Shown piece by piece: positions 11-19,629 of a stretch of 33,681 bases of DNA. Position 1 is the stretch's first letter. The number at the start of each line of letters is the position of its first letter. Made by a program: the position numbers and the translations under genes. This stretch comes from a virus, in the IMG/VR virus record IMGVR_UViG_3300030098_004840, positions 1 through 33,681 of that record. One strand, written 5' to 3'. Below the pieces are notes generated by a model, which did not search any database, was not told the origin of the DNA, and was given only the letters and a program-made list of their open reading frames with translations.

Positions 11-29
11 GGAAGATAAATAATCTTCC
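11..29 (+). terminator. Hairpin upstream of the sigma factor gene, possible weak terminator
   Basis: GGAAGAT (11-17) and ATCTTCC (23-29) form a perfect 7-bp stem around a 5-base loop. No T-tract follows directly; the nearest pyrimidine-rich run is at 50-59. It may end an upstream transcript or be a processing site. The rest of 1-103 holds no open reading frame that I can support. Confidence 0.35.
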
Positions 30-6190: not shown

Positions 6191-6207
6191 TTGTGTATAA
6201 TAATACG
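6191..6207 (+). promoter_or_regulatory. Putative phage late promoter 1 (TTGTGTAT motif)
   Basis: TTGTGTATAATAATACG lies in the 90-base gap between the large terminase and the glycosyltransferase, 75 bases before the latter's ATG. The TTGTGTAT core is shared exactly with four other intergenic gaps. A TATAAT-like -10 follows directly; no -35 box is evident. Downstream, AATATAATT occurs twice (6214-6222 and 6226-6234) at a 12-base step and might bind a regulator. Confidence 0.6.
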
Positions 6208-6265
6208 ATTGGCAATATAATTGTTAATATAATTAAGAGACTTTTAATATATTTGGAGCATATAT

Positions 6266-7252
6266 ATGGGAAACGAAGAAGAATTAAGAAAAGAACTTGC
6301 CGCAGCCAGAGAATTGATTGAAAAAATGCAGCAGCGACTTAATTCTCTTAGTGAGAGTGAAGCTAATAAACAAATAGATAAAGATAAAGAAGATACTAAA
6401 TCGTTAAAAAAGGTTATTAGTTTTTCTTTGTATGGGGATAAAGCTTGTTATCAAGTTGGTGCAATAGTTAATTTATTAGAGGCTAGAAGGATTTTTCCTG
6501 ATTGGACTTGTAGAGTATATACTAATGTCGCACCTGAAGTTAGTAAATTGTTGTCATATATGGGTGCAGAAGTAATTGATATGGCCAACGAGCCTGATGA
6601 ACTTATAAGAAAAGGTGGAATGTTTTGGAGATTTTTACCTATAGATGATCCAGAGGTAGATGTCTTCTTTTGTCGAGATACTGATTGTGTTGTTTGTGAA
6701 AGGGATCGTTCTGCTGCGGATAATTTTTTAGCTAGTGGTAAGGAATGGTTTATAGTTAGAGACCATCCTGGGCACAAAGTTGTTCCTATTCCTGGCGGAA
6801 TGTGGGGACATAGAAAGCATAAAGATGGATTGGATTTTATTAATGGAAAATCTTTAAGGGATTATATAAAAAAATGGTCTGAAGAGTCGGGTAAAAAAAC
6901 TTGGGGGTTTAATAATGATCAACGTTTTTTGAAATGGTTTTATGAATGTTATGCAAAGAGGTCTCTAGGTGGTATTGCAAGATACGGCCCTCAAGGTATG
7001 CTTATACCTCCTCATGGGGATACTTATCTTACGTACCACATAGGTGCAAGAATGTTTCGTGGAAACAAATTTAATGCTGTTTTACCTAGACGTGGTTATA
7101 CTGCTGATTGGTGGAGACAAATACGTGGTAAGCAATGGCGTTTTTACTCACAAGGCGATGATATGCTTGGTTTAATTGATTACAATGTCTTTGGCAGTCC
7201 GTATAGCGATGAAATGCATCCACGTCGTCGTCCTGAGTCAAATGAAAAATAA
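6266..7252 (+). CDS. Putative glycosyltransferase (RDxD type)
   Basis: 328 residues. After a charged coiled-coil N-terminus (1-45) comes a GT-A-like domain: a Rossmann-type start VISFSLYGDKACYQVG (50-65), the strand DVFFCRDTD (132-140) giving the RDxD metal/nucleotide-sugar site, ERDRSAADNFL (145-155), VRDHPGH (164-170), PGGMWGH (176-182) and NNDQRFL (216-222). The series RDxD, RDHP-H, GGMWG and N-D-Q is a set I know from a family of uncharacterised bacterial and viral glycosyltransferases. Acceptor unknown. It stands between terminase and portal, under the first late motif, so it is probably made with virion proteins and may modify them; gmd could supply the sugar nucleotide. TTGGAG sits about ten bases before the ATG. 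Confidence 0.72.
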   Translation: MGNEEELRKELAAARELIEKMQQRLNSLSESEANKQIDKDKEDTKSLKKVISFSLYGDKACYQVGAIVNLLEARRIFPDWTCRVYTNVAPEVSKLLSYMGAEVIDMANEPDELIRKGGMFWRFLPIDDPEVDVFFCRDTDCVVCERDRSAADNFLASGKEWFIVRDHPGHKVVPIPGGMWGHRKHKDGLDFINGKSLRDYIKKWSEESGKKTWGFNNDQRFLKWFYECYAKRSLGGIARYGPQGMLIPPHGDTYLTYHIGARMFRGNKFNAVLPRRGYTADWWRQIRGKQWRFYSQGDDMLGLIDYNVFGSPYSDEMHPRRRPESNEK

Positions 7253-7291
7253 TATACTAAAAAATAAATAATATGGAGGTATAGACGCAAA

Positions 7292-9421
7292 ATGTCAGAT
7301 AATTTATACAACACATGGGGTAGCGAGGCTGAAAAAGACAAGGTTTATGATTCTATTAACCTTGATGGTTATGATGGAGCTGTATATCGTAGTGAAGGTC
7401 ATGGTTGGGGTTATCGTGGAGATCCTTCCTATAACAGTTATCAACAGACATATCTTGATATAGAGCCTAATCGTAATGTACGTCCCTCTTTTAACCGTTC
7501 TGACTATGACGCATTTCGTCCAGGCGAGGCAATTCCTAGTCGACAAAAAAAGATAATGGCGGCTTGTATGGCTGCCTATGATCGCGTTGGAATCATTCGT
7601 AATGTTATTGACTTGATGAGTGATTTTGCTAGTCAGGGTCTCGTATTGGTGCATCCCAATAAAAATATTGAAAAGTTTTATCGTAAATGGTTTAATCAGG
7701 TAAATGGTAATGATAGATCTGAACGTTTTCTTAATTATCTTTACAGAACTGGTAACGTTGTTGTTCAACGTCGAACTGCAAGGTTAAACAGAAGAAAAGA
7801 AGCAGAGTTAAGACGTGCCGCTGGTGCAGATATAATTATAGATGAGTTAAAAATACCAAAACGCGAAGTTCCTTGGATGTACGACTTTATTAATCCTATT
7901 GCGGTTGATGTTGATGATCCTGGTATGCTTGCAGTTGGGAAGCCTCAATTTTACTTAAACATATCTAAATATACTTATCAATCCTTGTTGAACACATCTA
8001 CAAATAACAAGGGTGTATTCAAGACTTTACCTGTCGATTTGCAAAAAAGAATTGAATCTGGAGATAGAAGAATTCCTTTAACCGATGATACATTCTTTTA
8101 CCACTACAAAAAGGACGATTGGCTTCTTTGGGCTAATCCTATGATTTATGCTATCCTTGACGATATTCGCATGCTTGAAAAGATGAAGCTTGCGGACTTA
8201 GCAGCTTTAGATGGTGCTATTAGTCAGGTTAGATTGTGGACAGTTGGGGACTTTGATCAGAAGATTGTACCAACTAAGGCTGGCTTGGAAAAGATTAGAA
8301 ATATTCTAGCTAGTAATGTTGGCGGCGGAACCATGGATCTGGTTTGGGGTCCAGAACTTAAATTTACCGAAAGTAATTCTCAGGTTTATAGATTTTTAGG
8401 TTCTGAAAAATATCAACCCGTATTAACAAGTATTTATGCAGGGCTTGGTATTCCTCCAACACTTACTGGTGCATCTGGGCAAAATGGTGGATATACTAAT
8501 AATTATGTTTCTTTAAAAACTCTTATTGAAAGATTAGAGTATGGCCGAGAGGTTCTAACTCGTTTCTGGAAACAAGAAATAGAATATGTAAGAAAAGCAA
8601 TGGGTTTTAGGCTTCCTGCTGAAATTCATTTCGATTCTATTATTCTTTCTGATGAATCCGCACAAAAGAAACTTCTTATGGATTTGGCTGATCGTGATAT
8701 AATTTCTCAAGAGACCTTGCTAGAAAGATTTCGCGAAATACCTGGAATTGAAAGAGTTAGAGTTAGAAGGGAAGAACGTGAGCGTCTTAATGACTCTAAT
8801 GCACCCAAAAAGGCTGGTCCATATCATAATCCTCATCATAAAGAGGATATTGCTAAAATGGGTTTACAAAAGGATTCTTTAGATAGTGAACAGTATTTTG
8901 AACAGTTGGGACTTCCTTATATAGACACTGAAAAAGAACAAGTAAAAGTAACTGTTGATAATACTAAAAATGAACCTCAAGATGAAGGTGGTAGACCTCT
9001 TTTCTCTAGAGATTTAGAGCCAAGAAAGCAACGTCGTGTACTTCCTAGAAGTGGAGAACCTACTTCTGCTACTTTGTGGGGTATTGAGGCACAGGAGAAA
9101 ATTTCTGAGATGATGACTCCTGTAATTTGCGAACACTACAAAAAGAAAGACGCTCGTGCTCTAAGTAAGGTACAAACTGAAGAATTGGAAAGTTTAAAAC
9201 TTTCTATATTCACTAGCTTAGAACCTATGATTGAAGTAAATGAGCAAAGTGTTCAAGAGGCTTTGGCTAGGAATACTAAACCCAGTAAAGTATTTAAAGA
9301 ACTAGTTGATAGTAAAAGGGAAACCTTTAATACAGTAAGACAGAGAAGGCCAAATACTTCAGAAATGCGTCACATTTACGCTTCGTCGTTTGCGGAAATT
9401 TTTTGTAATAATCATGAATAA
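7292..9421 (+). CDS. Portal protein
   Basis: 709-residue ring-forming protein at the unique head vertex, through which DNA enters and leaves. Recognised by the portal pattern: an N-terminal segment with RQKKIMAACMAAYDRVGIIRN-like region (about 84-104) and MSDFASQG (109-116), a middle alpha/beta clip, the helix rich in Leu/Lys (DDIRMLEKMKLADLAALDGA part near 289-308), then YAGLGIPPTLTG (about 386-397), a hallmark close to the tunnel loop and crown, and a long charged C-terminal region. Its place after the terminase and before the protease/scaffold is canonical. A GGAGG site is at 7275-7279. The C-terminal part from about 590 is helical and may face the interior. No TTGTGTAT motif precedes it, so it is likely co-transcribed with the glycosyltransferase. 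Confidence 0.92.
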   Translation: MSDNLYNTWGSEAEKDKVYDSINLDGYDGAVYRSEGHGWGYRGDPSYNSYQQTYLDIEPNRNVRPSFNRSDYDAFRPGEAIPSRQKKIMAACMAAYDRVGIIRNVIDLMSDFASQGLVLVHPNKNIEKFYRKWFNQVNGNDRSERFLNYLYRTGNVVVQRRTARLNRRKEAELRRAAGADIIIDELKIPKREVPWMYDFINPIAVDVDDPGMLAVGKPQFYLNISKYTYQSLLNTSTNNKGVFKTLPVDLQKRIESGDRRIPLTDDTFFYHYKKDDWLLWANPMIYAILDDIRMLEKMKLADLAALDGAISQVRLWTVGDFDQKIVPTKAGLEKIRNILASNVGGGTMDLVWGPELKFTESNSQVYRFLGSEKYQPVLTSIYAGLGIPPTLTGASGQNGGYTNNYVSLKTLIERLEYGREVLTRFWKQEIEYVRKAMGFRLPAEIHFDSIILSDESAQKKLLMDLADRDIISQETLLERFREIPGIERVRVRREERERLNDSNAPKKAGPYHNPHHKEDIAKMGLQKDSLDSEQYFEQLGLPYIDTEKEQVKVTVDNTKNEPQDEGGRPLFSRDLEPRKQRRVLPRSGEPTSATLWGIEAQEKISEMMTPVICEHYKKKDARALSKVQTEELESLKLSIFTSLEPMIEVNEQSVQEALARNTKPSKVFKELVDSKRETFNTVRQRRPNTSEMRHIYASSFAEIFCNNHE

Positions 9422-9449
9422 TACCAAAATGAACCTATTTATTGGTTTT

Positions 9450-9461
9450 TTGTGTATTATT
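9450..9461 (+). promoter_or_regulatory. Putative phage late promoter 2 (TTGTGTAT motif)
   Basis: TTGTGTATTATT lies between the portal stop and the protease/scaffold start, 31 bases before the ATG at 9481. It follows a T-run and is preceded by an AT-rich stretch without a -35 box. It would drive the protease/scaffold, decoration and capsid genes as one unit ending at the 12526 terminator. Confidence 0.58.
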
Positions 9462-9480
9462 GGTTATGGAGAAACTAAAT

Positions 9481-10968
9481 ATGAATATACCAATATATCA
9501 ACAAGAGGTTCGTGATGGCTTGCAGGAAGTTATAGCTAACAATTCTATTGCTTGTCTTGCCGTTGCAGAAACTGATACTGCTCCGTCTCCAGAGTCTGTA
9601 GAGAGGTTACAAAAAGCTCTCACTGACAATAAGACGGACATGGCCTTGGCTGAAAATAAAGAACAGATAGATCTTTACTATATTAAGTCTATTTTGGTTA
9701 GTACTGGCTGGAATAAAAACGATGATGTTTTTGACCATAAAGAATTATGGGAAGCTAGAAAAACCCCAGAAGATAAACCGTTTAACTTTATGCACGATGA
9801 AAAGGATATCATTGGGCATATTACCGCTAATCAGGTGGTTGACTTTGAAGGTAATACAATCAATGAAGATGCTGAAGCTCCTAATGAGTTTAACATTCTT
9901 ACATCTGCTGTAATTTATACTGAATGGTCTGATCCTGAGCAGCGAAATCGTATGCAAAAGATTATCGCTGAAATTGAGGAAAACAAATGGTTTGTATCCA
10001 TGGAGTGTTTGTTTCCAAACTTTGACTACGCTTTAAAAGATAGTAAAGGTGAAATGAAGGTTGTTCAACGTGATGAAGCCTCCGCCTTTTTAACAAAACA
10101 TTTAAGATCTTACGGAGGAACTGGAGTTTATGAAGATTACCAAGTGGGCCGACTATTAAGAAACTTATCGTTCTCTGGTAAAGGCTTAGTTTCCAAACCC
10201 GCTAACCCACGTAGTGTAATTTTGGAAGGAAATGATTTTTTTGATGAATCTCAAGCAAAAGTTTTATCTTTATCTTCACTAAAGGAGAATGATATGTCTG
10301 ATAGTTATGAAAAGCAGGTTGACGACCTGCGTGCTGAATTGGCAGAAGCTAAAGCTGCTAATGAAGCTCTTAAAGAGAAGGTCATTGCAGAACAACAATC
10401 CGAGTTCGAGGCTAAGATTCAAGAGCTTCAAACTACGATTGAATCGCAAGCGGCTGATCTGGTAGAAAAGTCTTCTAGTTTGGAAGCTGTGTCGGAATCT
10501 TTGAAGGAGGCCGAAGAGGCCATTGCTGTTAAAGATGCAGATATGGAAGAAAAAATGGAAGAACTTAGAAAGCTTAAGAAGAAAGAAGCTATTATGAAGC
10601 GTAAGGCCCAACTTGAAGAAGCTGGTTTTGATGCTGAAGAAGCTTCCGCGACTGTAGCTGAATTTGAAGAAGTTGACGATGATACCTTTGCTAAGGTAGT
10701 TGCCGTTATGAAGAAGAAGGCTATTATTACGAAGAAGAAGGCTATTAAGCAAGAAGAAAAGGAAGAAGAAAAAGAAAAAGATGCCAAGGCTGAAGAGCTT
10801 GCAGAAGAGGTTGATACCGCTGAAGCAAGTGAAGAAGTTTTGGAAGAAGTAGAAGTTCCATCGGAAGTTGCTGTTGCAGAAGCGATGGGTGAAGAAGATC
10901 CTGCTGAAAACCTTCGTTCGGTAGCTACTGAATGGGTCAGCTCAGTTCTCAAGCATAAAAATTCTTAA
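9481..10968 (+). CDS. Head maturation protease fused to scaffold protein
   Basis: 495 residues from the ATG at 9481, which has GGAG ten bases upstream. Residues 60-250 form a prohead protease domain: a strand YYIKSILVSTGWNKNDDVF (67-84), His105 in FMHDEKDIIGHI and Ser173 in WFVSMECLF, the His/Ser pattern of the herpes/HK97-type assembly proteases. Residues 272-495 are a highly charged scaffold: a coiled coil (about 276-370), a Lys/Glu-rich stretch, an acidic Glu-rich zone, and a C-terminal helix ENLRSVATEWVSSVLK that probably binds the capsid protein. Fusion of protease and scaffold is a known phage arrangement; the protease normally removes the scaffold after assembly. An upstream in-frame TTG at 9442 overlaps the promoter-like motif and is rejected as the start. 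Confidence 0.86.
   Translation: MNIPIYQQEVRDGLQEVIANNSIACLAVAETDTAPSPESVERLQKALTDNKTDMALAENKEQIDLYYIKSILVSTGWNKNDDVFDHKELWEARKTPEDKPFNFMHDEKDIIGHITANQVVDFEGNTINEDAEAPNEFNILTSAVIYTEWSDPEQRNRMQKIIAEIEENKWFVSMECLFPNFDYALKDSKGEMKVVQRDEASAFLTKHLRSYGGTGVYEDYQVGRLLRNLSFSGKGLVSKPANPRSVILEGNDFFDESQAKVLSLSSLKENDMSDSYEKQVDDLRAELAEAKAANEALKEKVIAEQQSEFEAKIQELQTTIESQAADLVEKSSSLEAVSESLKEAEEAIAVKDADMEEKMEELRKLKKKEAIMKRKAQLEEAGFDAEEASATVAEFEEVDDDTFAKVVAVMKKKAIITKKKAIKQEEKEEEKEKDAKAEELAEEVDTAEASEEVLEEVEVPSEVAVAEAMGEEDPAENLRSVATEWVSSVLKHKNS
10294..10968 (+). CDS. Nested scaffold protein from an internal start
   Basis: A strong internal Shine-Dalgarno, AAAGGAG at 10281-10287, lies six bases before an in-frame ATG at 10294, exactly at the junction between the protease and scaffold parts of the 9481 gene. 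It would yield a 224-residue free scaffold beginning MSDSYEKQVDD. This mirrors the lambda C/Nu3 pair, where a nested gene makes extra scaffold so that it far outnumbers the protease fusion. A 6-bp hairpin (GCAGGT 10314-10319 with ACCTGC 10325-10330) lies 20 bases into the nested gene and could favour initiation there. That both products are made is inference from the quality of the site and its domain position. Confidence 0.75.
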   Translation: MSDSYEKQVDDLRAELAEAKAANEALKEKVIAEQQSEFEAKIQELQTTIESQAADLVEKSSSLEAVSESLKEAEEAIAVKDADMEEKMEELRKLKKKEAIMKRKAQLEEAGFDAEEASATVAEFEEVDDDTFAKVVAVMKKKAIITKKKAIKQEEKEEEKEKDAKAEELAEEVDTAEASEEVLEEVEVPSEVAVAEAMGEEDPAENLRSVATEWVSSVLKHKNS

Positions 10969-10989
10969 TAAATAAAAGGAGATTTTACA

Positions 10990-11466
10990 ATGGCTCTTAA
11001 ACAAGACAGATCTAGTCTGCAAACGGACATTTCGTTCTTCATGAATGAAGTCGCAGAAAGAGGTGGTGTTGTTTCGTTAAGCACTGCCGGCTCTGGTGCA
11101 TCTCTTGATAATGGTAATGCTGTGGTTACTTACGCAGCAGATCCTTCTGGCAAGGTTCCGCTTGGCTTGCTTATCAATGATATGGTTAACATTGATTTGA
11201 CACGACAGCACTTGAACCAACACAAAGACGAAGTACAGAAGGGTGGTAAAGTTACTCTTCTCAATAAGGGTTACGTTGTAACCGATCAATTGGAGGGTAC
11301 TCCCAATGGTGGTGACTTGGCTTACCTTGGCCATAGTGGTACTTTGGCTACGCCCACGGCTGCTGCTGGCACTAACAGTGGTGACGCAAACTCTGTTGGA
11401 CGTTTCCTCAGTGATGTTGACCAATTTGGTTACGCTAAGGTTTATATTGACCTGCCCAACAATTAA
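10990..11466 (+). CDS. Probable head decoration protein
   Basis: 158 residues. After a short helical N-terminus (FFMNEVAERGG, about 16-26) the protein is beta-rich with many Gly, Ser and Thr: GNAVVTYAADPSGKVPLG, KVTLLNKGYVVTDQL and the C-terminal YAKVYIDLP strand. Small beta proteins encoded directly before the major capsid protein and sharing its transcript are usually decoration or stabilising proteins that sit on the outer shell. Codons are C-ending and CGT-rich like the capsid gene, which points to high expression. AAAAGGAG ends eight bases before the ATG. I do not see a family signature, so the role rests on position, size and composition. Confidence 0.68.
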   Translation: MALKQDRSSLQTDISFFMNEVAERGGVVSLSTAGSGASLDNGNAVVTYAADPSGKVPLGLLINDMVNIDLTRQHLNQHKDEVQKGGKVTLLNKGYVVTDQLEGTPNGGDLAYLGHSGTLATPTAAAGTNSGDANSVGRFLSDVDQFGYAKVYIDLPNN

Positions 11467-11494
11467 TTTTAATTTATAAAAGGAGAAGAGCATA

Positions 11495-12499
11495 ATGTCT
11501 ACTAATGAAAGACCTACCGCAGAATTCATCGAATTGCTCAAACGATCCGGTGATTCTGAAAAATCTGTTGCAATGCAAGCACAGCGAGAGATCGCTAAAG
11601 CTTTAGAAACGCCTCTTCGTAAGGGCGTTTTGTTTGGTGACGTTGTACGTGGTATCTACGAGGCTATGCCTCTCGAACCCGGTGCTACGCCTGAGTTCCC
11701 CTTGGATCTCCTTGCACCCGGAACCGAGATTGATCACGTTGCTTTCACCAATCCCGGCAACGGGCGTATTCCAGAACGTCACGTTGAAGGTGATTACGTC
11801 ATGATCAACACTTATGGCATCACTAGTTCGATTGACTTCTTGTTGAAGTACGCTCGTGAAGCTAATTGGAATGTTGTTGGTCGTGCCATGCAAGTTCTTG
11901 AGTCGTCCTTCGTTAAGAAGATCAACGATGATGGATGGCATACGTTGTTGGCAGCTGCTGTAGACCGTAATATTTTGGTCTATGATGGCGATGCTGGTGC
12001 TGGCCAGTTCACTAAGCGACTTGTCAGCCTTATGAAGACTGTCATGCGTCGAAATGGTGGCGGTAACAGCGTTACGGCTCCTGGTCGTTTGACCGATCTT
12101 TACATGTCGCCTGAAGCTATTGAAGACATCCGCAACTGGGGTGTTGATCAGCTTGACGAAGTTTCTCGACGAGAGATTTACGTTGCTAACGAAGATGGTC
12201 CTTCCTTGACTCGCGTCTTTGGTGTTAACCTTCACGATCTCTTTGAGTTCGGTGACGGTCAAGAGTATCAAGACTACTTTGTTACCGATCTCGGCGGTTC
12301 AATTGAATCTAGCGACGTTGAGTTGGTTATCGGTCTTGATCAAAGTGCAGACGATTCGTTCGTCATGCCCGTCAAGAAAGAGGTTGAGATCTATGAAGAT
12401 CCCGCTCTCCATCGACATCAGCGACAAGGCTACTATGGCTGGGCTGAAATTGGCTTTGGTGTTCTTGATAACCGAAGAATCATTGCTGGCTCGTTCTAA
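11495..12499 (+). CDS. Major capsid protein
   Basis: 334 residues, HK97-fold candidate that forms the head shell. Features: a charged N-terminal arm (1-45), the segment ending PERHVEGDYVMINTYGI (about 88-104), the spine-helix region SSIDFLLKYAREANWNVV, LTDLYMSPEAIEDIRNWG (about 201-218) typical of the A-domain, and a C-terminal sequence VEIYEDPALHRHQRQGYYGWAEIGFGVLDN in which the GYYGWAEIGFGV part resembles the end of many capsid proteins. Codon use is strongly biased (CGT, TTC, GAC, GTC) and visibly more GC-rich than flanking genes, as expected for the most abundant virion protein. It follows the scaffold and decoration genes and is followed by a strong terminator. An AAAGGAG site precedes the ATG. 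Confidence 0.93.
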   Translation: MSTNERPTAEFIELLKRSGDSEKSVAMQAQREIAKALETPLRKGVLFGDVVRGIYEAMPLEPGATPEFPLDLLAPGTEIDHVAFTNPGNGRIPERHVEGDYVMINTYGITSSIDFLLKYAREANWNVVGRAMQVLESSFVKKINDDGWHTLLAAAVDRNILVYDGDAGAGQFTKRLVSLMKTVMRRNGGGNSVTAPGRLTDLYMSPEAIEDIRNWGVDQLDEVSRREIYVANEDGPSLTRVFGVNLHDLFEFGDGQEYQDYFVTDLGGSIESSDVELVIGLDQSADDSFVMPVKKEVEIYEDPALHRHQRQGYYGWAEIGFGVLDNRRIIAGSF

Positions 12500-12525
12500 G
12501 AACGTCTGCGATAGATTATTTAAGA

Positions 12526-12559
12526 AAGCCGTCTCGAAAGGGGCGGCTTTTTTCTTTTT
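12526..12559 (+). terminator. Strong intrinsic terminator after the capsid gene
   Basis: AAGCCGTCTC (12526-12535) pairs with GGGGCGGCTT (12540-12549) around a GAAA tetraloop: ten pairs, two of them G-T wobble, followed by TTTTCTTTTT. The GNRA loop and U-tract make this a textbook Rho-independent terminator 27 bases after the capsid stop. It separates the high-output capsid unit from the neck genes. Confidence 0.93.
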
Positions 12560-12561
12560 AA

Positions 12562-12570
12562 TTGTGTATA
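12562..12570 (+). promoter_or_regulatory. Putative phage late promoter 3 (TTGTGTAT motif)
   Basis: TTGTGTATA lies directly after the U-tract of the capsid terminator and 50 bases before the next ATG (12612). A promoter is needed here because the terminator should stop most upstream transcripts, which gives this copy the best contextual support of the five. Confidence 0.66.
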
Positions 12571-12592
12571 GAGTTTTATAAAATGTAAATTC

Positions 12593-12605
12593 ATCCTTAT
12601 AGGAT
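12593..12605 (+). promoter_or_regulatory. Short hairpin over the ribosome binding site of the 12612 gene
   Basis: ATCCT (12593-12597) and AGGAT (12601-12605) are a perfect inverted repeat around TAT. The AGGA at 12601-12604 is the only Shine-Dalgarno for the ATG at 12612. The stem is only five pairs and AU-rich, so its effect would be mild. It repeats the theme seen at 91-105. Confidence 0.33.
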
Positions 12606-12611
12606 AAAATT

Positions 12612-12803
12612 ATGGCGGAAGAAATCAACTTTTCGTTAGAAACGAACACACAGTCAGAGTTTACTTTAGAAATTCAAACACAATTAGACCAAATTTTGAG
12701 TATAAATACACAGAGTCAATTAAATCAATCTTTAAGTATAAATAAGCAAATAGATAATACATTAAAAATTAACCGTTCAATAGAATTTACAGTAGAGAGA
12801 TAG
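12612..12803 (+). CDS. Small repeat protein of unknown function
   Basis: 63 residues, not recognised. The protein consists almost entirely of a degenerate repeat of 10-12 residues alternating hydrophobic and polar positions: FTLEIQTQLDQ, ILSINTQSQLNQ, SLSINKQIDN, TLKINRSIE, FTVER. One unit is visible in the DNA as a 36-base step between identical TATAAATA words (12701 and 12737). Cysteine, glycine and proline are absent and Gln/Asn/Ser/Thr dominate. It could form a tiny beta-solenoid or a fibrous peptide. It is the first gene after the capsid terminator, three bases from the next gene, and so belongs to the neck/virion module. Confidence 0.62.
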   Translation: MAEEINFSLETNTQSEFTLEIQTQLDQILSINTQSQLNQSLSINKQIDNTLKINRSIEFTVER

Positions 12804-12805
12804 TC

Positions 12806-13132
12806 ATGTCTTGTTCAGAAGAAGAAGTTCATTACAATGATATAGGCACCGATATTATCGTGACTGTAAACGACTGTGTTTCTGGTACAGCCACCGCTTT
12901 GGATGTATCTAGTGCTAGTACTTTAGAACTTATTTTAAAATCACCATCTGGTACTTCTAGCACTAAAATAGCGAGTTTAAATACGGATGGCACTGATGGA
13001 AAAATAAAATACACTTCGGTGGATGGAGATTTTAACGAAGTGGGAACCTGGAGAATTCAGGCAAAGATCATCATTAGTGGTGGTACATTTAGATCTGATG
13101 TAGGATCTTTCAAAGTTTACGAAAATCTATAG
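12806..13132 (+). CDS. Ig-like phage structural protein (BppU N-terminal-like)
   Basis: 108 residues with an all-beta, immunoglobulin-like pattern: NDIGTDIIVTVNDC (11-24), LDVSSASTLELILKSPSG (32-49), then TDGTDGKIKYTS and the closing GTWRIQAKIIISGG (about 78-91) with a final SFKV strand. The 'IGT ... dvS.A..l.l..k.PsG ... DG...Y....d....GtW..Qa' pattern is shared by small phage virion proteins and by N-terminal domains of baseplate proteins such as BppU. It could decorate the capsid or connect to a host-binding element. The place right after the capsid unit favours a head-associated decoration role, but the exact site in the virion cannot be read from sequence. Confidence 0.6.
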   Translation: MSCSEEEVHYNDIGTDIIVTVNDCVSGTATALDVSSASTLELILKSPSGTSSTKIASLNTDGTDGKIKYTSVDGDFNEVGTWRIQAKIIISGGTFRSDVGSFKVYENL

Positions 13133-13141
13133 GGTAATATT

Positions 13142-13645
13142 ATGCCTTGGCAAATGGATATGATCTTGATGTTGAGATCTGTACTTGGCGATCTTGACGA
13201 AACAAAATATACAGACGAGCGTCTTAAGCAAGTTTTAATGGTTGGTGCTTATAATGTTCGAAATGATGCTACGTTTCCCAATACATACACTGTTAATGTT
13301 GGTCAGGTTTCTATTTCTCCAGATCCAGTAGATCAAAGCGATACTGATTTTGTAATTTTAACTGTATATAAAACAGCATGTATATTAATTGGCAGTGAAG
13401 TAAAAACAGAATCTGCTAACGCTATTTCAATTAAAGATGGTCCTTCCGCTATTGACTTACGTGGCGTTAGTGGTAGTTTGAATGTTTTATACAAAGATAT
13501 ATGTGCTAAATATGAAGATTTACTGAATACGTATAGGTGGGAACGAGGCAGTGGAGATGGAAAGCCTCTTGGTACTGCAATACTTGGCCCCTACAGCCCT
13601 GGAAGCTGGGGTGTCGGTCGAAATGGATACACTGATTTTTCTTAA
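13142..13645 (+). CDS. Head-tail adaptor (connector) protein
   Basis: 167 residues. The N-terminal half is helical with MILMLRSVLGDLDETKYTDE (about 7-26) followed by RLKQVLMVGAYNV, the pattern of gp6/gp15-type adaptors that dock under the portal: a short helix, an acidic turn, then a helix that begins with a Tyr/Asp-Asp/Glu cap. The second half has a long helix (VILTVYKTACILIGSEV) and a Gly/Pro-rich C-terminal tail. Adaptors of 100-170 residues are normal. It is the first gene of the neck series, before the zinc-ribbon and completion proteins, which matches the usual gene order capsid - adaptor - stopper - completion - terminator - tube. Confidence 0.7.
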   Translation: MPWQMDMILMLRSVLGDLDETKYTDERLKQVLMVGAYNVRNDATFPNTYTVNVGQVSISPDPVDQSDTDFVILTVYKTACILIGSEVKTESANAISIKDGPSAIDLRGVSGSLNVLYKDICAKYEDLLNTYRWERGSGDGKPLGTAILGPYSPGSWGVGRNGYTDFS

Positions 13646-13667
13646 TAACATATAAGGAGAGAATAAA

Positions 13668-13904
13668 ATGTCAGTTGTGCAAAAAATTATAGGTGGCAAT
13701 AGTCAACCAGCGGGCGGTCGTGCTGTAGTTGGTGTTAATGGTGCTAGGGGTTTAGATTCGAGTTCTGTGTTAGATGCAAACCACACTTTAGAACCCACTC
13801 CATTACCTTCTTCTAAAATAGATGAATCTATTGCTAGGATTAACTCTGTTCTTATTAGTCGTTATGATGATCCTCGTTACTATACTGGTGATGCAGCAAC
13901 TTAA
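13668..13904 (+). CDS. Small protein of unknown function
   Basis: 78 residues, not recognised. The N-terminal half is Gly/Ala/Val-rich and probably flexible (about 8-40), and the C-terminal half has one helix, SKIDESIARINSVLISR, followed by DDPRYYTGDA. AAGGAG lies a few bases before the ATG, and the gene is tightly set between two neck genes, so it is very likely expressed. A linker or minor neck component is possible; the sequence does not decide. Confidence 0.55.
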   Translation: MSVVQKIIGGNSQPAGGRAVVGVNGARGLDSSSVLDANHTLEPTPLPSSKIDESIARINSVLISRYDDPRYYTGDAAT

Positions 13905-13913
13905 GGTGTTTAA

Positions 13914-14429
13914 ATGGCGATTAATATCCCAAGTAGTGTTTTTACTACTTATAACGAAGCGGTCCTTTTGTTTACAAGGACCGCGACATTAGTATATCCT
14001 GAAAAAAAGGAAGATTGTCCAAATTGCATCATGAGCAATATGGGCACTAGAAATCGTTCTATAAGCATTTATAAACCTGGAGGTCCATATCCTTTTGACA
14101 GGGGTATGCCATGTCCTTATTGTGGTGGCAAGGGATATAAAGCCGTTGAGTCCACTGATGATATTACTTTAAGAATATATTGGGACAGAAGATCTTGGGT
14201 CGATATTGGAGTTCCTATCAATATTCCTGCCGGTAGTGTCCAAACTATAGCATATATGACAGATTTAGAAAAGATAGAAAAATGTAAATATATGATTCCA
14301 AAATATGACGGAATAGAAAACTATGATGTAAATGCCAAATTTGAAAAAAATGGCATGTCTTTTCCTCAAGGTTTTAAACAAAATGCCACGAAGTATGTGG
14401 TTACTTTTTGGACACGGGCCTCGGAGTAA
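13914..14429 (+). CDS. Neck / head closure protein with a zinc ribbon
   Basis: 171 residues. Two Cys pairs, Cys35-x2-Cys38 (DCPNC) and Cys67-x2-Cys70 (CPYCGGKG), form a DnaJ-like zinc ribbon with the CxxCxGxG variant in the second half. Between them lies GGPYPFDRGMPC. The C-terminal two thirds are beta-rich (ITLRIYWDRRSWVDIG, AGSVQTIAYMTDLEKIEKC, KYVVTFWTRASE). This is the pattern of small virion proteins encoded just before the tail completion protein in several long-tailed phages, and I place it as a head-closure (stopper) candidate by position. Zinc would stabilise the fold. Two strong hairpins occupy the first 70 bases of the gene. AAGGTG precedes the ATG. Confidence 0.6.
   Translation: MAINIPSSVFTTYNEAVLLFTRTATLVYPEKKEDCPNCIMSNMGTRNRSISIYKPGGPYPFDRGMPCPYCGGKGYKAVESTDDITLRIYWDRRSWVDIGVPINIPAGSVQTIAYMTDLEKIEKCKYMIPKYDGIENYDVNAKFEKNGMSFPQGFKQNATKYVVTFWTRASE
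13931..13984 (+). repeat. Two tandem perfect hairpins at the 5' end of the zinc-ribbon neck gene
   Basis: AAGTAGT (13931-13937) pairs with ACTACTT (13944-13950), 7 bp and a 6-base loop. Nine bases on, GCGGTCCTT (13959-13967) pairs with AAGGACCGC (13976-13984), 9 bp and an 8-base loop. Both lie inside the coding sequence, 18 to 71 bases after the A of the ATG. They may tune translation or be RNA processing sites; chance for the second stem alone is small. Confidence 0.5.
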
Positions 14430-14432
14430 CTT

Positions 14433-15047
14433 ATGTCTTTATCTATTAAGCTTATCGAGTCAGATAAAGCTATCCAACAAAAAATAAACAAGGCATTAGT
14501 CAAGCAAATCAATAGGTCTATATCTAAGAATTTACCATCTGCTCAAAGAAAGATATTAACTTTAATTAGGACTTCATTAAACTCTAGTCCTGAAATGCAA
14601 TCTTTAAGAACTGGAATTTTAAAATTAGAATTTGGTTTAGACAAAGATCCTACATTTGACATAATTGAATCCATTATGTCTAGTTTAGAGATTAAATTTT
14701 CTCCAATCAATCCTAGAGATTTTAGTGGTGGTATTTTAATTGTCTTACAACCTTCAGATTATCGTAATTTGCTTTCTATGCCTGCGGCATATCAACAAAT
14801 AGATGGTGGTAGCCTTCCTTGGTTGAGCTGGCTTTTGACTTTGGGGGACGCTGTGATTATTACTAGATTTGGTGTTGAGATTGGTGATTTTCCAGACTCT
14901 AGAACTGGCGGTGCTAGAATGACCCAAAAGGCTGCTCCTTATAAAGTTAATAGTGCTTTTTCTGGAACTACAGAAGATAATTTTATAACAAGATCTGTTG
15001 CCAGAGTCTCAAACCAAATTCGAGGAATAATAAAAGGAGTATTGTAA
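14433..15047 (+). CDS. Probable neck / tail completion protein
   Basis: 204 residues. The N-terminal half is helical and basic (KAIQQKINKALVKQINRSISK, RKILTLIRTSLNSSPEMQ), like HK97 gp10-type tail completion proteins. The second half has a signature I associate with phage neck genes next to a zinc-ribbon protein: GGSLPWLSWLLTLGDAVI (124-141), then FGVEIGDFPDSRTGGARM. Tail completion proteins sit between stopper and tail terminator and help attach the tail. GGAG lies ten bases before the ATG. The stop overlaps the next start, which gives translational coupling. The exact position in the neck is an inference. Confidence 0.6.
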   Translation: MSLSIKLIESDKAIQQKINKALVKQINRSISKNLPSAQRKILTLIRTSLNSSPEMQSLRTGILKLEFGLDKDPTFDIIESIMSSLEIKFSPINPRDFSGGILIVLQPSDYRNLLSMPAAYQQIDGGSLPWLSWLLTLGDAVIITRFGVEIGDFPDSRTGGARMTQKAAPYKVNSAFSGTTEDNFITRSVARVSNQIRGIIKGVL

Positions 15048-16033
15048 TGGTTGGGGGTACGAATACAAAACTCAATTTAAATTATGGCATAGAAAAGGCC
15101 ACAGATGCTAGTCTATCTGAAATTTTATTAGATAACATAATTAATTTTTATGATTGGGGATTGTTAGACGCTGGATCATTTTATACTATAAATGTTCCAC
15201 AAAGTGGTATTTACGGCGGAGACAGGCACAAGTTAAGGTTGGTCAATAGCCCTAATTATACCGCTGGACAAGTATGGGAAGGTTACAGACAAAACTGGGT
15301 TTGGGAAGGTAGTGGAAATATAGATGGTGTAGACCAACAGCCTATAGATATTTCTGGAGTTTTTGTTGATGGTTCGTTTTATGGTACTGGCAACGTGACT
15401 AAACCCTTTTACATTGATTACCCTTTGGGCAGGGTCGTTTTCGATACCGCCGAATCTAGCACTAGTGAAGTTCATTTGGCTTATAGTCATAAACGTGTGC
15501 AGATTCTTCCTGGCAAGGGTGATTCTTGGTTTAGGCAAATTCAGCAAAACTCTTTTAGAACAGATCAGAATTTTCAAGTTTCTGGATCTGGTGGCTGGAT
15601 TAGATTAGGTCAAACAAGAGTTCAATTACCAGCTATAGCTGTTGAAGTTGTGCCAGCTAGAGATACACAAGGATATCAACTGGGTGGAGGTCAATGGGTT
15701 AGGAGTGATTTGGTTTTCTATGTTATGGCGGAAAATCACTGGGAGGCAACCAATCTTGTAGACACTATCGCTGCTCAAAATGATAGAAATTTAACACTTT
15801 TTGATACTACAAAAGTTGCTATAAGTGGAGTATCTCCTCTTACTTTTGAAAATGGAAAAGAGCGAGAATTACGAGGACACGCTAGATCAAGCGGTTTATA
15901 TCCTCAATTGGTAGAAAATTATCCTTATAGAAAGTGTTGGTTGTACGAAGCAAGAGGTGAAAATATTACTCAACTTGCTACAGATTTATATGTTGGAATT
16001 GCACGGTGTAAAACGGAAGTTGGACCTGTTTAG
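15047..16033 (+). CDS. Virion protein, possible tail terminator
   Basis: 328 residues. The N-terminal half is beta-rich and Tyr/Trp/Gly-rich (DNIINFYDWGLLDAG, GYRQNWVWEGSG, YPLGRVVFDT). The C-terminal half, about 190-300, reads VQLPAIAVEVVPARDTQGYQ then WVRSDLVFYVMAENHWEATN and LVDTIAAQN: strand, long loop, strand and helix as in tail terminator folds, which cap the tail tube at the neck. Terminators are usually 130-200 residues, so this would be a two-domain version. It is the last gene before the tail tube, which is the usual terminator position. AAGGAG precedes the ATG. The call rests on position and fold-like pattern. Confidence 0.45.
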   Translation: MVGGTNTKLNLNYGIEKATDASLSEILLDNIINFYDWGLLDAGSFYTINVPQSGIYGGDRHKLRLVNSPNYTAGQVWEGYRQNWVWEGSGNIDGVDQQPIDISGVFVDGSFYGTGNVTKPFYIDYPLGRVVFDTAESSTSEVHLAYSHKRVQILPGKGDSWFRQIQQNSFRTDQNFQVSGSGGWIRLGQTRVQLPAIAVEVVPARDTQGYQLGGGQWVRSDLVFYVMAENHWEATNLVDTIAAQNDRNLTLFDTTKVAISGVSPLTFENGKERELRGHARSSGLYPQLVENYPYRKCWLYEARGENITQLATDLYVGIARCKTEVGPV

Positions 16034-16040
16034 CTTTATT

Positions 16041-16053
16041 TTGTGTATATAAT
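16041..16053 (+). promoter_or_regulatory. Putative phage late promoter 4 (TTGTGTAT motif)
   Basis: TTGTGTATATAAT begins seven bases after the stop of the previous gene and 53 bases before the tail tube ATG at 16094. It contains a TATAAT hexamer and no evident -35 box. It would drive the tail tube and the three following assembly genes. Confidence 0.6.
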
Positions 16054-16093
16054 ATTGCCTTACCAGGGAATAAAACTATAGGAGAAATACAAA

Positions 16094-17125
16094 ATGGCAA
16101 GAAATAATAGAATATTCTATGCCTGCAAAGCCGTTGTAATCATGAGGACCGGCCAGCCAGCTGCTGATGTGGGTTATGTTTACGGTTTGCAGAGTGTGGG
16201 AATGAGTTCTAATTTTACGCTTGATCAGGTTTTTGAAATTGGTCAGCTTGAAATTTATGAAAATATCGAAGATGTAGCTGATGTCGAAGTAACTTTGGAA
16301 AAGGTTATTGATGGCGAAAAACTTATCTATAATTTAGCTAGTAATGGAGAATGTAGAAATTCAATTGTTGCAGCATCTAAAGAACGTTCTGATGTTTATC
16401 TAGCTATCTATGACGATGGTCAAGATAATGCTACTGGCTTGGCTAGAAATGTATGCTGGAACTCTGGTATGTATGTTTCGAGTGTTGGCTATAATTATAG
16501 TGTTGATGGTAGTGCTACAGAGTCTGTTACCTTGGTTGGTAATGAAAAATTCTGGAATGATGATGTTTTTCTAGATGGTGGCTCGAATACTAGTGCTTAT
16601 GAACAGTTTAATTCAACTGGTAGGAATCCCGGTTTTGATAATGATACTCCAAACTCTGGCGTTCAACGTCGTGTGAATGTTGATACAACAAGCTCGACCT
16701 TCCCAGATATTGTTAAGAGTCAGGTGGGTGATGATATTGCTGGTACTAACAGTTTTCATATTCAAAGCATTAGTATTAGTGCAGACTTTGCACAGGAAAA
16801 CATTCTTGAATTGGGTCGATTTGCTCCGTATGCTCGTTACGCTACGTTCCCAATTGAAGTGACTGCTGAGTTTGAAGTTATTGCAACTTCTGGCGATCTT
16901 AAAACTGTTTCCGGTACAGGTCCAAACCTATCTAATTCTACAATCCTTATTAAGGACGACGCTGGAACTGTTCTTGACCTATCAAATAAGAACAAGTTGA
17001 GTTCAATTTCTTATTCTGGTGGAGATACTGGTGGTGGAAATGCTACTATTACTTATTCGTTTAGTAACTTTAACGGTCTCACAGTTGTAGATGGTGGTGG
17101 TTCCGAGCATGTTATTACTCCATAA
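16094..17125 (+). CDS. Major tail tube protein
   Basis: 343 residues. The segment VYGLQSVGMSSNFTLDQVFEIGQLEIYENIEDVADVEV, starting near residue 28, is the tube-protein core: an N-terminal strand, a loop, and 'FEiGqLeiYEniE', the inner strands that line the DNA channel. ESVTLVGNEKFW (about 142-153) and SFHIQSISISADF (about 217-229) fit the second half of the barrel. A C-terminal region (about 255-343) with GDLKTVSGTG and a beta pattern may be an Ig-like surface decoration. Hexameric rings of this protein stack along the tape measure. It has its own late motif, as expected for a second very abundant protein. A GGAG site precedes the ATG. No sheath gene accompanies it. Confidence 0.82.
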   Translation: MARNNRIFYACKAVVIMRTGQPAADVGYVYGLQSVGMSSNFTLDQVFEIGQLEIYENIEDVADVEVTLEKVIDGEKLIYNLASNGECRNSIVAASKERSDVYLAIYDDGQDNATGLARNVCWNSGMYVSSVGYNYSVDGSATESVTLVGNEKFWNDDVFLDGGSNTSAYEQFNSTGRNPGFDNDTPNSGVQRRVNVDTTSSTFPDIVKSQVGDDIAGTNSFHIQSISISADFAQENILELGRFAPYARYATFPIEVTAEFEVIATSGDLKTVSGTGPNLSNSTILIKDDAGTVLDLSNKNKLSSISYSGGDTGGGNATITYSFSNFNGLTVVDGGGSEHVITP

Positions 17126-17150
17126 GTTTTAAATATTAGGGAATTAGGAT

Positions 17151-18212
17151 TTGGACGATATATATTATGAAAGAATTTTAAATAGAATAATTCAAGGTCG
17201 TCTACGTTTTAAACTAGGCGATCTTGTTTTATTTATTGAAGAGCCTTCTAATGCAATCAAAGAAGCATCTTTTGATATTTATGATGATGCCTATAACAAG
17301 GCTTATTTCTCGGGTTGTTATGTTGAAAGGGAAGCTTTAGAGGTTCTTGTTGAATATGAATTATGGACTCCCCATGTTGATAAAAGGACTGAAGAACTTG
17401 AAAAAAGACTAGAAGAATTAAAAGTTGAAGCTTTTCAAAATTTCTTTAAAAAGCAAGAACTAAGAGGAATCAAGAGAAGTATAAAGATGACACAACGAGA
17501 AATAAACACATGCATGTTACAAAAACAACAATTGGATCATTTGACTTGTAAGGGTGTAGCAACGCTTACTAGAAACATGTGGATGTTATCTAAAACAACT
17601 AAAGATATAGATGGAAATTTATTTGATTTTGGTGCCGGTGATATTTCTGTTAAGAGCGTAATGGATATAGCTGCCAATAATGAAATTACTGTTGAAGACA
17701 TGAGATATATAGCAAGAAATTCTCCATGGAGACAGATGTGGAGTGGATCTAAAAATCGTGAATTTGTTTTCGATAAACGTTCTGTTGACCTTGATAAGAA
17801 CCAACTATCTTTGGTTAGCTTTTCTCAGATGTATGATAATGTTTATGAAAGTCCAGAACAGCCTTCTGAAGATGTGGTAAATGATGATGATTGTTTGGAT
17901 GGTTGGTTTATAGTAGAGCGTAGAAAGCAGGATAAAGACAAGAAAGACAGAGCTATTGATAATAAGTTGAGCAATTCAAAGATTGCCAATTCGCAAGAAG
18001 TAATGTTGATGGCAAATAACCAACAAGAGGCCAATGAGATCTTTGATCTGAATAACGATCATACTAGACAAATTATTCGACAAAGACAGCAAGAAATTAA
18101 AAATAGTAGTGGGAATATAAACTTTAAAGAACTGCAAGATGTCAAGCAAGACAGAATGATGAATGCTACAAATCAAAAGGTTCAAGCTTATAAGGGGATG
18201 AAAGGAAAATAA
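17151..18212 (+). CDS. Probable tail assembly protein (chaperone-like)
   Basis: 353 residues, starting with TTG at 17151; AGGG at 17138-17141 is well placed, and the only nearby ATG (17167 region) is out of frame. The N-terminal half reads LGDLVLFIEEPSNAIKEASF and YDDAYNKAYFSGCY, then a long coiled coil (about 80-140, KRTEELEKRLEELKVEAF). The rest is charged and helical with an acidic patch (VVNDDDCLDGW) and ends in a Gln/Asn/Lys-rich tail. Between tail tube and tape measure lie the chaperones that hold the tape measure during assembly; this and the next two genes fill that slot. No -1 frameshift site typical of G/GT was found. The stop overlaps the next start (TAATG). Confidence 0.5.
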   Translation: MDDIYYERILNRIIQGRLRFKLGDLVLFIEEPSNAIKEASFDIYDDAYNKAYFSGCYVEREALEVLVEYELWTPHVDKRTEELEKRLEELKVEAFQNFFKKQELRGIKRSIKMTQREINTCMLQKQQLDHLTCKGVATLTRNMWMLSKTTKDIDGNLFDFGAGDISVKSVMDIAANNEITVEDMRYIARNSPWRQMWSGSKNREFVFDKRSVDLDKNQLSLVSFSQMYDNVYESPEQPSEDVVNDDDCLDGWFIVERRKQDKDKKDRAIDNKLSNSKIANSQEVMLMANNQQEANEIFDLNNDHTRQIIRQRQQEIKNSSGNINFKELQDVKQDRMMNATNQKVQAYKGMKGK

Positions 18213-18592
18213 TGTCAGAACAAAAGGACTACAAGAAGTTTTTAAAAAATTCTATAAATCTAAAGAACGTGAGGGAAGAAAGGAGAAAGGAAGTATCTAA
18301 GGATGAATTGTTTAAATCTTGCAAAAAGAAAATTCAAACTACTATGATTGGTGCATTAGATACCATTGAAAAACAGTTTGGATTTCTTTGGGGTTTTGAA
18401 GATCAGCAGGATTTAAACGAAGAACAACAACAGCTTAAAGAGATTTATGACAATGTGCGAGCCTGTATTTTAGATAAAGGCAATACACAAATTAGAAATC
18501 TAGAGGCTGAATTTTCTAGTTATGAAGTTAATAGAAAAAGATATCAAATAGACATACCAGTAATGAATGACAATAATAATTCAGGAGAATAA
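18212..18592 (+). CDS. Small helical protein in the tail chaperone slot
   Basis: 126 residues, not recognised. It is nearly all helical and charged, with a basic N-terminus (KDYKKFLKNSINLKNVREERRKE, about 5-27), a central amphipathic helix around TMIGALDTIEKQFGFLW and a Gln/Glu-rich stretch. It overlaps the previous gene by one base and stops three bases before the next, so all three are translated together. A tape measure chaperone role is suggested by position only. Confidence 0.5.
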   Translation: MSEQKDYKKFLKNSINLKNVREERRKEVSKDELFKSCKKKIQTTMIGALDTIEKQFGFLWGFEDQQDLNEEQQQLKEIYDNVRACILDKGNTQIRNLEAEFSSYEVNRKRYQIDIPVMNDNNNSGE

Positions 18593-18595
18593 AGA

Positions 18596-19582
18596 ATGGA
18601 AAATGAAAACGTTAAAGAAAAGAAGTTTGAATCTAGGGATCAAGATGGCAATCAGATTATAGTCAAATTGATACAACCCGGACCCGCCGAGTATAGAGAT
18701 TCTCAAATCGAATATAATAAAGCCTTTAGAAAAGCTCTCGATTCTAACGCTTTGTTGAGGCAAAAACTTGAAGATTATATGCAAGAACAAGGCATTTGGA
18801 ATGAAGACAAACAAAAAAAGCACGATGAGTTTGTTTTACAGATTTCTGCCAAAGAAGATCAATTAAATAGTGGTGGCATTAAGCTTTCGGAAGCAAAAGA
18901 CATTGCACTTGAATTGAGAGTTTTAAGATATCAATTCAGAGAATTTTTATCTGAAAGAAATGCCCTGGATCAAAACTCTGTTGAAGGACAGGCAGACAAT
19001 GCTAGATTCGCTGAGTTAGTTAGATTGTGTATGTTGAACGTCAATACAAACAAACCATACTTTCAAGATCAACAAGACTATGATAAGTCTAGTAATTTAG
19101 ATTGGGTTATTGAAGCTTCTTCAGAGTTGGCGAGTATGATTTATGGTCTCGATCCCAATTATGACAATAAACTTACAGAAAATAAATTCCTAAAAGAATT
19201 TGAATTTGTAGATGATGATTTACGTTTAATCAATGAAAATGGTCATTTGGTTGACACTGATGGTAGGCTAATTGACAACGAGGGTCGTTTTGTTAAATAT
19301 AAGACGGCTAAAGCGGAAAAGGAACAAGACGAGGAGGCTAGATATTTTTGTAATCGGGATGGTGATGAGGTAGTAAAAATTGAGGATGGCGATGAAATCC
19401 GGTGGGTAACTAAAGATAAGGTAAAGAGGAAGCCCTTTTTGAGAGATGACGGCACTCCTTATCCTGAAACCGCTAAAAAGGAGGATGCGGAGAAAGAAGA
19501 GGATTTAGTTGCCGAAAAGACTACAAAAACCAAAAGAACTAGAAAAAAAGCAGAGCCGGAAAAAGACGCTGCGAAGGAATAG
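18596..19582 (+). CDS. Probable tail assembly chaperone with heptapeptide repeats
   Basis: 328 residues. The N-terminal domain (1-130) is helical, with AEYRDSQIEYNKAFRKALDS (31-50) reminiscent of proteins that pack on tape measure helices. Residues 207-234 hold four units of seven: DDLRLIN, ENGHLVD, TDGRLID and NEGRFVK, a beta-turn-type Gly-x-Leu-Ile/Val-Asp repeat. The C-terminal 90 residues are low-complexity Lys/Glu (RKPFLRDDG, then EKEEDL and TKTKRTRKK) and end in an AKE tail. The position immediately before the tape measure gene is that of a chaperone. The coding region contains one chance copy of TTGTGTAT at 19025. The function is inferred from position. Confidence 0.5.
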   Translation: MENENVKEKKFESRDQDGNQIIVKLIQPGPAEYRDSQIEYNKAFRKALDSNALLRQKLEDYMQEQGIWNEDKQKKHDEFVLQISAKEDQLNSGGIKLSEAKDIALELRVLRYQFREFLSERNALDQNSVEGQADNARFAELVRLCMLNVNTNKPYFQDQQDYDKSSNLDWVIEASSELASMIYGLDPNYDNKLTENKFLKEFEFVDDDLRLINENGHLVDTDGRLIDNEGRFVKYKTAKAEKEQDEEARYFCNRDGDEVVKIEDGDEIRWVTKDKVKRKPFLRDDGTPYPETAKKEDAEKEEDLVAEKTTKTKRTRKKAEPEKDAAKE

Positions 19583-19591
19583 TTGTGTATG
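19583..19591 (+). promoter_or_regulatory. Putative phage late promoter 5 (TTGTGTAT motif)
   Basis: TTGTGTATG starts just after the previous stop and lies 70 bases before the tape measure ATG. A 7-bp GC-rich hairpin lies between the motif and the start, so any transcript from here would carry it in its leader. This is the least promoter-like copy, with TATGAA as its -10. Confidence 0.5.
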
Positions 19592-19610: not shown

Positions 19611-19629
19611 GTGGGGCTTTGTGCCCCAC
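19611..19629 (+). terminator. GC-rich hairpin in the leader of the tape measure gene
   Basis: GTGGGGC (19611-19617) and GCCCCAC (19623-19629) form a perfect 7-bp stem around TTTGT. It is followed by GGTTTT, a weak T-run, so it can terminate only partly. Placed after promoter 5 and before the ATG, it may attenuate read-through or stabilise the 5' end. Confidence 0.5.

Follow-up and report, generated by a model that had tools for sequence, protein, structure and literature searches.

A conserved word before the virion-gene blocks of an uncultivated phage lineage, a probable late promoter element read by a phage sigma factor

Comparison across genomes indicates that the word TTGTGTAT is placed at the head of each virion-gene block in the phage analyzed here and in uncultivated relatives numbering well over a hundred. 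The window, i.e., the whole stretch of DNA under analysis, corresponds to an entire IMG/VR record (33,681 bases); as related records reach 148 kb, it is probably a genome fragment. The best-supported explanation of the word is the one offered by an earlier note on this DNA, a phage-specific late promoter whose likely reader is the sigma factor encoded at 104–625. Among the papers listed in a literature search for the word, none was relevant.

Results

The word in the window

Exact copies of TTGTGTAT occur nine times in the window, compared with 1.45 expected, and none of 100 shuffled sequences reached this count. Six copies lie on the plus strand (the five in Table 1 and one at 19025) and three on the minus strand (15663, 18483 and 28622), a recount identical to the list in the earlier note. 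With gene ends as read in this analysis, intergenic gaps make up 743 of the 33,681 bases (2.2%), and five of the six same-strand copies fall within them (P for at least five of six, 3e-8). The distances from the word to the start codon, previously given as 31–75 bases, were measured as 75, 31, 50, 53 and 70 for the five gap sites in order. At the second site the likely start is ATG 9481, a mechanical TTG start at 9442 being unlikely.

Two gene assignments made earlier had to be revised. The name "glycosyltransferase" for 6266–7252 found no support in Pfam or PHROG; this gene is a window-specific addition between the first element and the portal gene, absent from the relatives, where the promoter directly precedes the portal. 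The protease placed in the module behind 9450 belongs elsewhere, the ClpP-like head protease match being at 3540–4190, and 9481–10968 is a putative scaffold gene, so called from its position alone.

Table 1. Coordinates of the predicted late promoter elements and associated features in the window
Feature	Positions	Strand	Remarks
Late promoter element 1	6191–6198	+	Before 6266 and portal 7292; predicted start 6207
Late promoter element 2	9450–9457	+	Before putative scaffold gene 9481–10968; predicted start 9466
Late promoter element 3	12562–12569	+	Neck unit; predicted start 12578
Late promoter element 4	16041–16048	+	Tail tube unit; predicted start 16057
Late promoter element 5	19583–19590	+	Tape measure unit; predicted start 19599
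Intrinsic terminator	12526–12559	+	After capsid gene, directly before element 3; GC-rich inverted repeat and T-run
Three AATnnnATT dyads	6202–6234	+	Portal-unit leader; 12-nt spacing; relatives' leaders alike
GC-rich hairpin	19611–19629	+	Tape-measure leader, downstream of predicted start; stem GTGGGGC/GCCCCAC
Phage sigma factor, 173 aa	104–625	+	ECF-like sigma region 2, no detectable region 4
D5-like regulator, 267 aa	644–1447	+	N-terminal helix-turn-helix and long coiled coil

Recurrence in related phages

Relatives were collected by a terminase scan, which contributed 80 loci, the best 80 of 596 confirmed matches. When all 8-mers were ranked by enrichment in upstream gaps across 98 nonredundant loci (1.33 Mb), TTGTGTAT came first without having been chosen beforehand, with 131 copies in gaps versus 17 in coding sequence (127-fold). 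The word is thus far from equally frequent in genes, and the earlier claim that its placement in gaps is not due to chance holds in the relatives as in the window. Across 120 loci, 154 gap copies were sense to the next gene and 2 antisense. Being both the top 8-mer and strand-biased among relatives, the word is not peculiar to one contig.

Its copies recur at the same five places, before the portal, scaffold, post-capsid (neck), tube and tape measure genes, and almost nowhere else. With at most one mismatch, the word precedes 60 of 63 portal, 44 of 46 scaffold, 18 of 18 tube and 11 of 14 tape measure orthologues, while for nearly all other genes the share is 0–12%; the exceptions are the small genes right after the neck site (12612–13142, 29–67%) and families with very few orthologues. 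Permuted words reached a mean of about 13–23% when one mismatch was allowed, and some, including motif-overlapping words in a shifted register, came near the rate of the real word. The exact counts therefore carry the weight: 40, 33, 14 and 7 matches at the portal, scaffold, tube and tape measure genes, versus permuted means of 0.1–0.8.

The neck site reaches 12 of 18 in the ortholog table, some copies lying inside coding sequence, and looks weaker there owing to the variable presence of small genes behind the capsid gene. Measured from the capsid gene, the post-capsid site is present within 250 nt in 56 of 60 nonredundant loci: the pattern N[TGA]GTGTA[TA] was detected in 28 of the 29 loci on the window's side and 28 of the 31 from the wider group, compared with 2 and 0, respectively, for the reversed word. 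Among the matches listed, the post-capsid word in most sequences follows an intrinsic terminator, as it does in the window.

Geometry of the late element

Alignment of 115 nonredundant sites gave the consensus TTGTGTA(T)(A/T), i.e., TTGTGTAT(A/T), and little else. TTGTGTA is kept at 83–100% per position, strong information is restricted to indices 0–8, and the flanks vary. A classical or clearly conserved -35 was not found in the 115 aligned late sites, which agrees with the description in the earlier note. That note also had the word followed by TATAAT-like bases; these are present at two of the five gap copies, 6191 and 16041, but TATAAT was rejected as a second half of the motif, since it is not conserved in the aligned sites.

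A Shine-Dalgarno sequence follows the word as close as 9 nt and never closer (120 loci), at many sites 9–11 nt away. This proximity rules out a -35 role at the late sites, as the RNA start must precede the Shine-Dalgarno. A pyrimidine-purine step at indices 15/16 is found in all five groups, at 60–94% of their sites, and in about 10% at both neighbouring positions; all five window sites carry it 16 nt from the word start, and the predicted starts in Table 1 are placed on it. Taken together, the Shine-Dalgarno spacing and the step mark the word as a putative -10-type element. Upstream, a weak pattern (AA at -40/-39 and C at -32/-31) is common to the groups, and given this pattern the late promoter may not be strictly single-element; the pattern was not repeated in 17 independent extra sites.

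Leaders and hosts

The AATnnnATT dyads of the portal leader (Table 1) amount to 78 units in 42 portal leaders versus 8.0 expected, at a spacing of 12. Such tandem dyads, just downstream of the portal promoter, are seen in the wider superfamily too, and are candidates for an operator, a packaging signal or an RNA element. The tape-measure hairpin was detected in 9 of 10 leaders, with stem letters that differ between them, and resembles either a terminator lying beyond the promoter or a structural element of the leader. Most tube-unit leaders of relatives contain the word CCTTTACCAGAGG, and a conserved leader word, CCTTTACCAGAGGAC, follows the tube promoter at 16057–16090 in the window and in the tube leaders of relatives.

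Many portal genes of a second clade (portal leaders L240–L309) have no Shine-Dalgarno before them, hinting that its hosts and the hosts of the window's clade belong to different phyla. A host search in genome contigs returned three MAG contigs (SAR202, Gemmataceae and Flavobacteriales) with one partial match; as these represent three different phyla, they were rejected as hosts and are likely binning effects.

The sigma factor, its neighbour and the drift of the word

The product of 104–625 matches Pfam Sigma70_r2 above the cut-off (1.1e-7), with a profile match to SigE/SigW region 2. Region 2 was detected in 51 of 51 homologues and region 4 in 0 of 51. An AlphaFold2 model of fair confidence (pLDDT 80) resembles sigma region 2 in its first part (8b3z; TMt 0.73, rmsd 2.1), the Foldseek E-values being weak. 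The adjoining gene keeps its place beside the sigma gene in most relatives, the most diverged ones included. Matches to phrog_323, transcriptional regulators resembling D5 of phage T5, were obtained for 53 of its 58 homologues (best 8.7e-8); the window's own protein scored no better than 0.00096. For this protein (model pLDDT 82), Foldseek returned coiled-coil matches alone, HK97 TerS weakly; it could be a co-regulator, a small terminase being less likely. Searches of isolate phages with the sigma or the D5-like protein gave no matches.

A second scan, with a diverged member as the query, added loci whose terminase is about 45–50% identical to that of the query. In this wider superfamily, GTGTA is present in 65 of 66 nonredundant terminase–portal gaps, 58 times as GTGTAT; gap shuffles gave a mean of 1.0 and at most 4. 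Immediately before GTGTA, the window's clade has T and the second clade mostly has G or A. Mapped onto a tree built from 77 sigma proteins, this base changes 4 times, versus 21.3 when shuffled, and in 65 of 71 genomes it is the same at the portal site as at the scaffold site. In the G009 lineage, which has the most diverged sigma (27%), TTGTGTAT is absent from the portal, scaffold and tube gaps, and TATCGTATAAT stands there instead, a diverged word seen in this one lineage.

From the linkage of gene and word, the motif variant that tracks the sigma tree, and the different word that accompanies the most diverged sigma, we infer that sigma 104–625 is the reader of the late word. As the sigma and the motif belong to the same genome and have had the same history, they could co-vary through common descent, which can account for part of the pattern; a reader that moves along with the genome would account for the whole.

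Early promoters, extra sites and the sigma operon

In long relatives, early genes carry promoters of the form TTGACA-16..18-TATAAT (26 full matches, none in shuffles). The word (G/C)CGATA, perhaps an operator, is often located in their spacer, as in the early gaps of G001, G012, G013 and G014. In the long records, few gap copies of the late word are antisense and few words lie outside the structural cluster. Some of the latter stand before the genes of a PAP2 enzyme and of a 320-aa protein that is conserved, and an extra word close to the cluster is followed by the gene of a virion structural protein (phrog_3758, 1e-26). This distribution supports a late regulon. In L152 (4465–4481, or 44465–44481 in G002), two head-to-head copies of TTGTGTAT form a near-palindrome before the gene of a 321-aa protein that is conserved among three genomes.

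The window begins 103 nt before the sigma gene, and the promoter of the sigma operon was seen in relatives. There, [TAG]TGTGTAT is located about 190–380 nt upstream of sigma, and it occurs anywhere in the 520 nt upstream in 39 of 75 loci. A TATAAT-like box stands exactly 17 nt after this word in 68% of 28 deduplicated sites, versus 0–18% at other spacings and 9% of late sites at the same spacing. Judged by eye, the late initiator step is missing from most sigma-operon sites. The composite [TAG]TGTGTAT-N17-TATAAT was observed upstream of sigma in L089, L090, L093, L101, L109, L170 and others.

This arrangement suggests that the same reader controls the sigma operon, an autoregulation that could act in either direction. 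A serious, if tentative, possibility is that one word is used in two geometries, as the -10 at the late units and in the -35 place at the sigma operon, forming a built-in handover switch. In that case the sigma or the D5-like partner would regulate its own operon by occupying the -35 place of a host-type promoter.

Discussion

A model of late transcription

The element itself, its conserved places and strand, its register with the start signals and the classes of promoter can be read from the genomes directly. A promoter fits the orthologous placement, the strand bias, the -10 geometry, the initiator step and the presence of sigma70 early promoters elsewhere. We consider it probable that host RNA polymerase, when it carries the phage sigma 104–625, recognizes the late promoters through the word as a single -10-type element. 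In this model, TTGTGTAT(A/T) would be the single essential element of the late promoters, replacing the -10 box, and the phage sigma would replace the host sigma on the host enzyme. The sigma-bearing polymerase would open the DNA at the word and start RNA 16 nt after its first T; a -35 box would not be needed, since region 2 is present in the sigma and region 4 could not be detected. Late transcription would then fall into about five consecutive units (portal, scaffold-capsid, neck, tube, and the tape measure with what follows it), with an intrinsic terminator separating at least one of them from the next. Because the early genes of relatives use host TTGACA/TATAAT promoters, synthesis of the sigma would be the early-to-late switch. 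A point that speaks against the model is the different geometry of the word at the sigma operon.

The strongest competitor, which we nevertheless regard as unlikely, makes the word the binding site of a regulator, e.g., the D5-like protein, that activates or recruits polymerase, and not a -10. The D5-like gene is indeed conserved beside sigma, and at the sigma operon the word lies 17 nt upstream of TATAAT, where an activator site or a -35 would be expected. The late sites differ in that they have no downstream -10: the TATAAT-like box so common at spacing 17 in the sigma operon is rare among them, the Shine-Dalgarno begins within 9–11 nt of the word at many, and an activator bound there would stand in the way of initiation. 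A -10 is also what the initiator step fits.

If the word is a -10, it might be one for a host sigma70-type factor, as an odd extended -10, and not for the phage sigma. Two sites, 6191 and 16041, have TATAAT-like bases overlapping the word, and host-type TATAAT promoters exist in these genomes, so the idea is not without footing; we nonetheless judge it improbable, as the early promoters combine TTGACA with TATAAT and the late sites share neither. In addition, TGTGTATA deviates from the TATAAT pattern, the most strongly kept bases (G at indices 2 and 4) lie outside the sigma70 -10 consensus, and a host factor would leave the motif variant that tracks the sigma tree unexplained.

Still less probable is an RNA or DNA signal of another kind, such as a processing site, a terminator tail, or a packaging or recombination signal. 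Although the word often comes after T-runs and terminators, and the leaders bear hairpins and repeats, its almost strictly single orientation, the fixed distance limits to start codons, the fixed initiator step and the scattered copies before single late-type genes elsewhere in the genomes speak against such a role. Chance or a composition artefact, to which T-rich words in AT-rich gaps might be prone, can practically be dismissed in view of the relatives, where the word is the first-ranked gap 8-mer, the shuffles, the gap statistics, the permuted-word counts and the excess of copies in the window.

The preferred model is accordingly graded in its parts: the element is real, very likely functional and well explained, and the word probably starts transcription, acts late and is read by this sigma, perhaps aided by the D5-like protein.

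Comparison with known phage systems

The earlier note had likened the element to the late promoters of T4. These carry TATAAATA and depend on gp55, gp33 and gp45. The comparison stands as a loose analogy, with late genes behind a -10-only element and a small phage sigma as the reader. The word here is TTGTGTAT(A/T) and not TATAAATA, the neighbour of the sigma is D5-like and not gp33, and the late-sigma family phrog_234 (gp55) shows weak similarity, in 7 of 51 sigma homologues (best 0.0028); the T4 word and homology to gp55 were rejected on these grounds.

A much closer parallel, the closest known, is gp36 of phage phiEco32, a sigma without region 4 that reads the middle/late promoters through a single tAATGTAtA element with the start 6–8 bp downstream (PMC8948821). 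The window system similarly has one short conserved element, its 3' half closely matching TGTATA about 8 bp before the predicted start, no clearly conserved -35, and a phage sigma with region 2 as its sole detectable sigma region and no recognisable region 4. In both, early genes are left to host sigma70 and one copy precedes each late unit (PMC8948821). The 5' half differs, TTG here versus tAA in phiEco32, and these are other phages with another terminase lineage. Homology of the sigma to gp36 was not demonstrable (hhalign probability 1.7%; HMM E = 0.011 in a small set), so the two systems may work alike without proven kinship.

In phage 7-11, SaPh711_gp47 also serves late units at matching genome places, but through a measured two-part promoter, GTAAtg-16-aCTA, and with a sigma that has region 4 (PMC8948821). 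Its promoter word had been predicted from sequence as TGATGT (PMC4331800), and the difference from the measured element advises caution with predictions of this kind, ours included.

By terminase, the nearest isolates are Bacillus phage Slash and Microcystis phage MaeS (25–28% identity). Slash likewise has an annotated ECF sigma ahead of the terminase. In contrast, the gaps of both phages carry GTATTAAT, all four plus-strand copies in Slash lying in gaps; the word recurs before the portal and other units in Slash (L311) and MaeS (L310) and is perhaps their late element. No homology was detectable between the window sigma and the proteins of Slash and MaeS.

Significance

The related phages comprise several hundred contigs in one collection, without a close cultured isolate. 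The promoter word, the predicted starts and the sigma together would give the late programme of these uncultivated phages from sequence alone, and the word would let unlinked late genes, such as candidate virion proteins and the PAP2 enzyme, be picked from among unknown ORFs. If the two-geometry reading is true, a handover switch coded by one word is conserved across a large uncultivated phage lineage. The lineage would further offer natural sigma–promoter pairs with drifted specificity (TTGTGTAT, GGTGTAT/AGTGTAT and ATCGTATAAT), making promoter choice by sigma region 2 alone directly testable.
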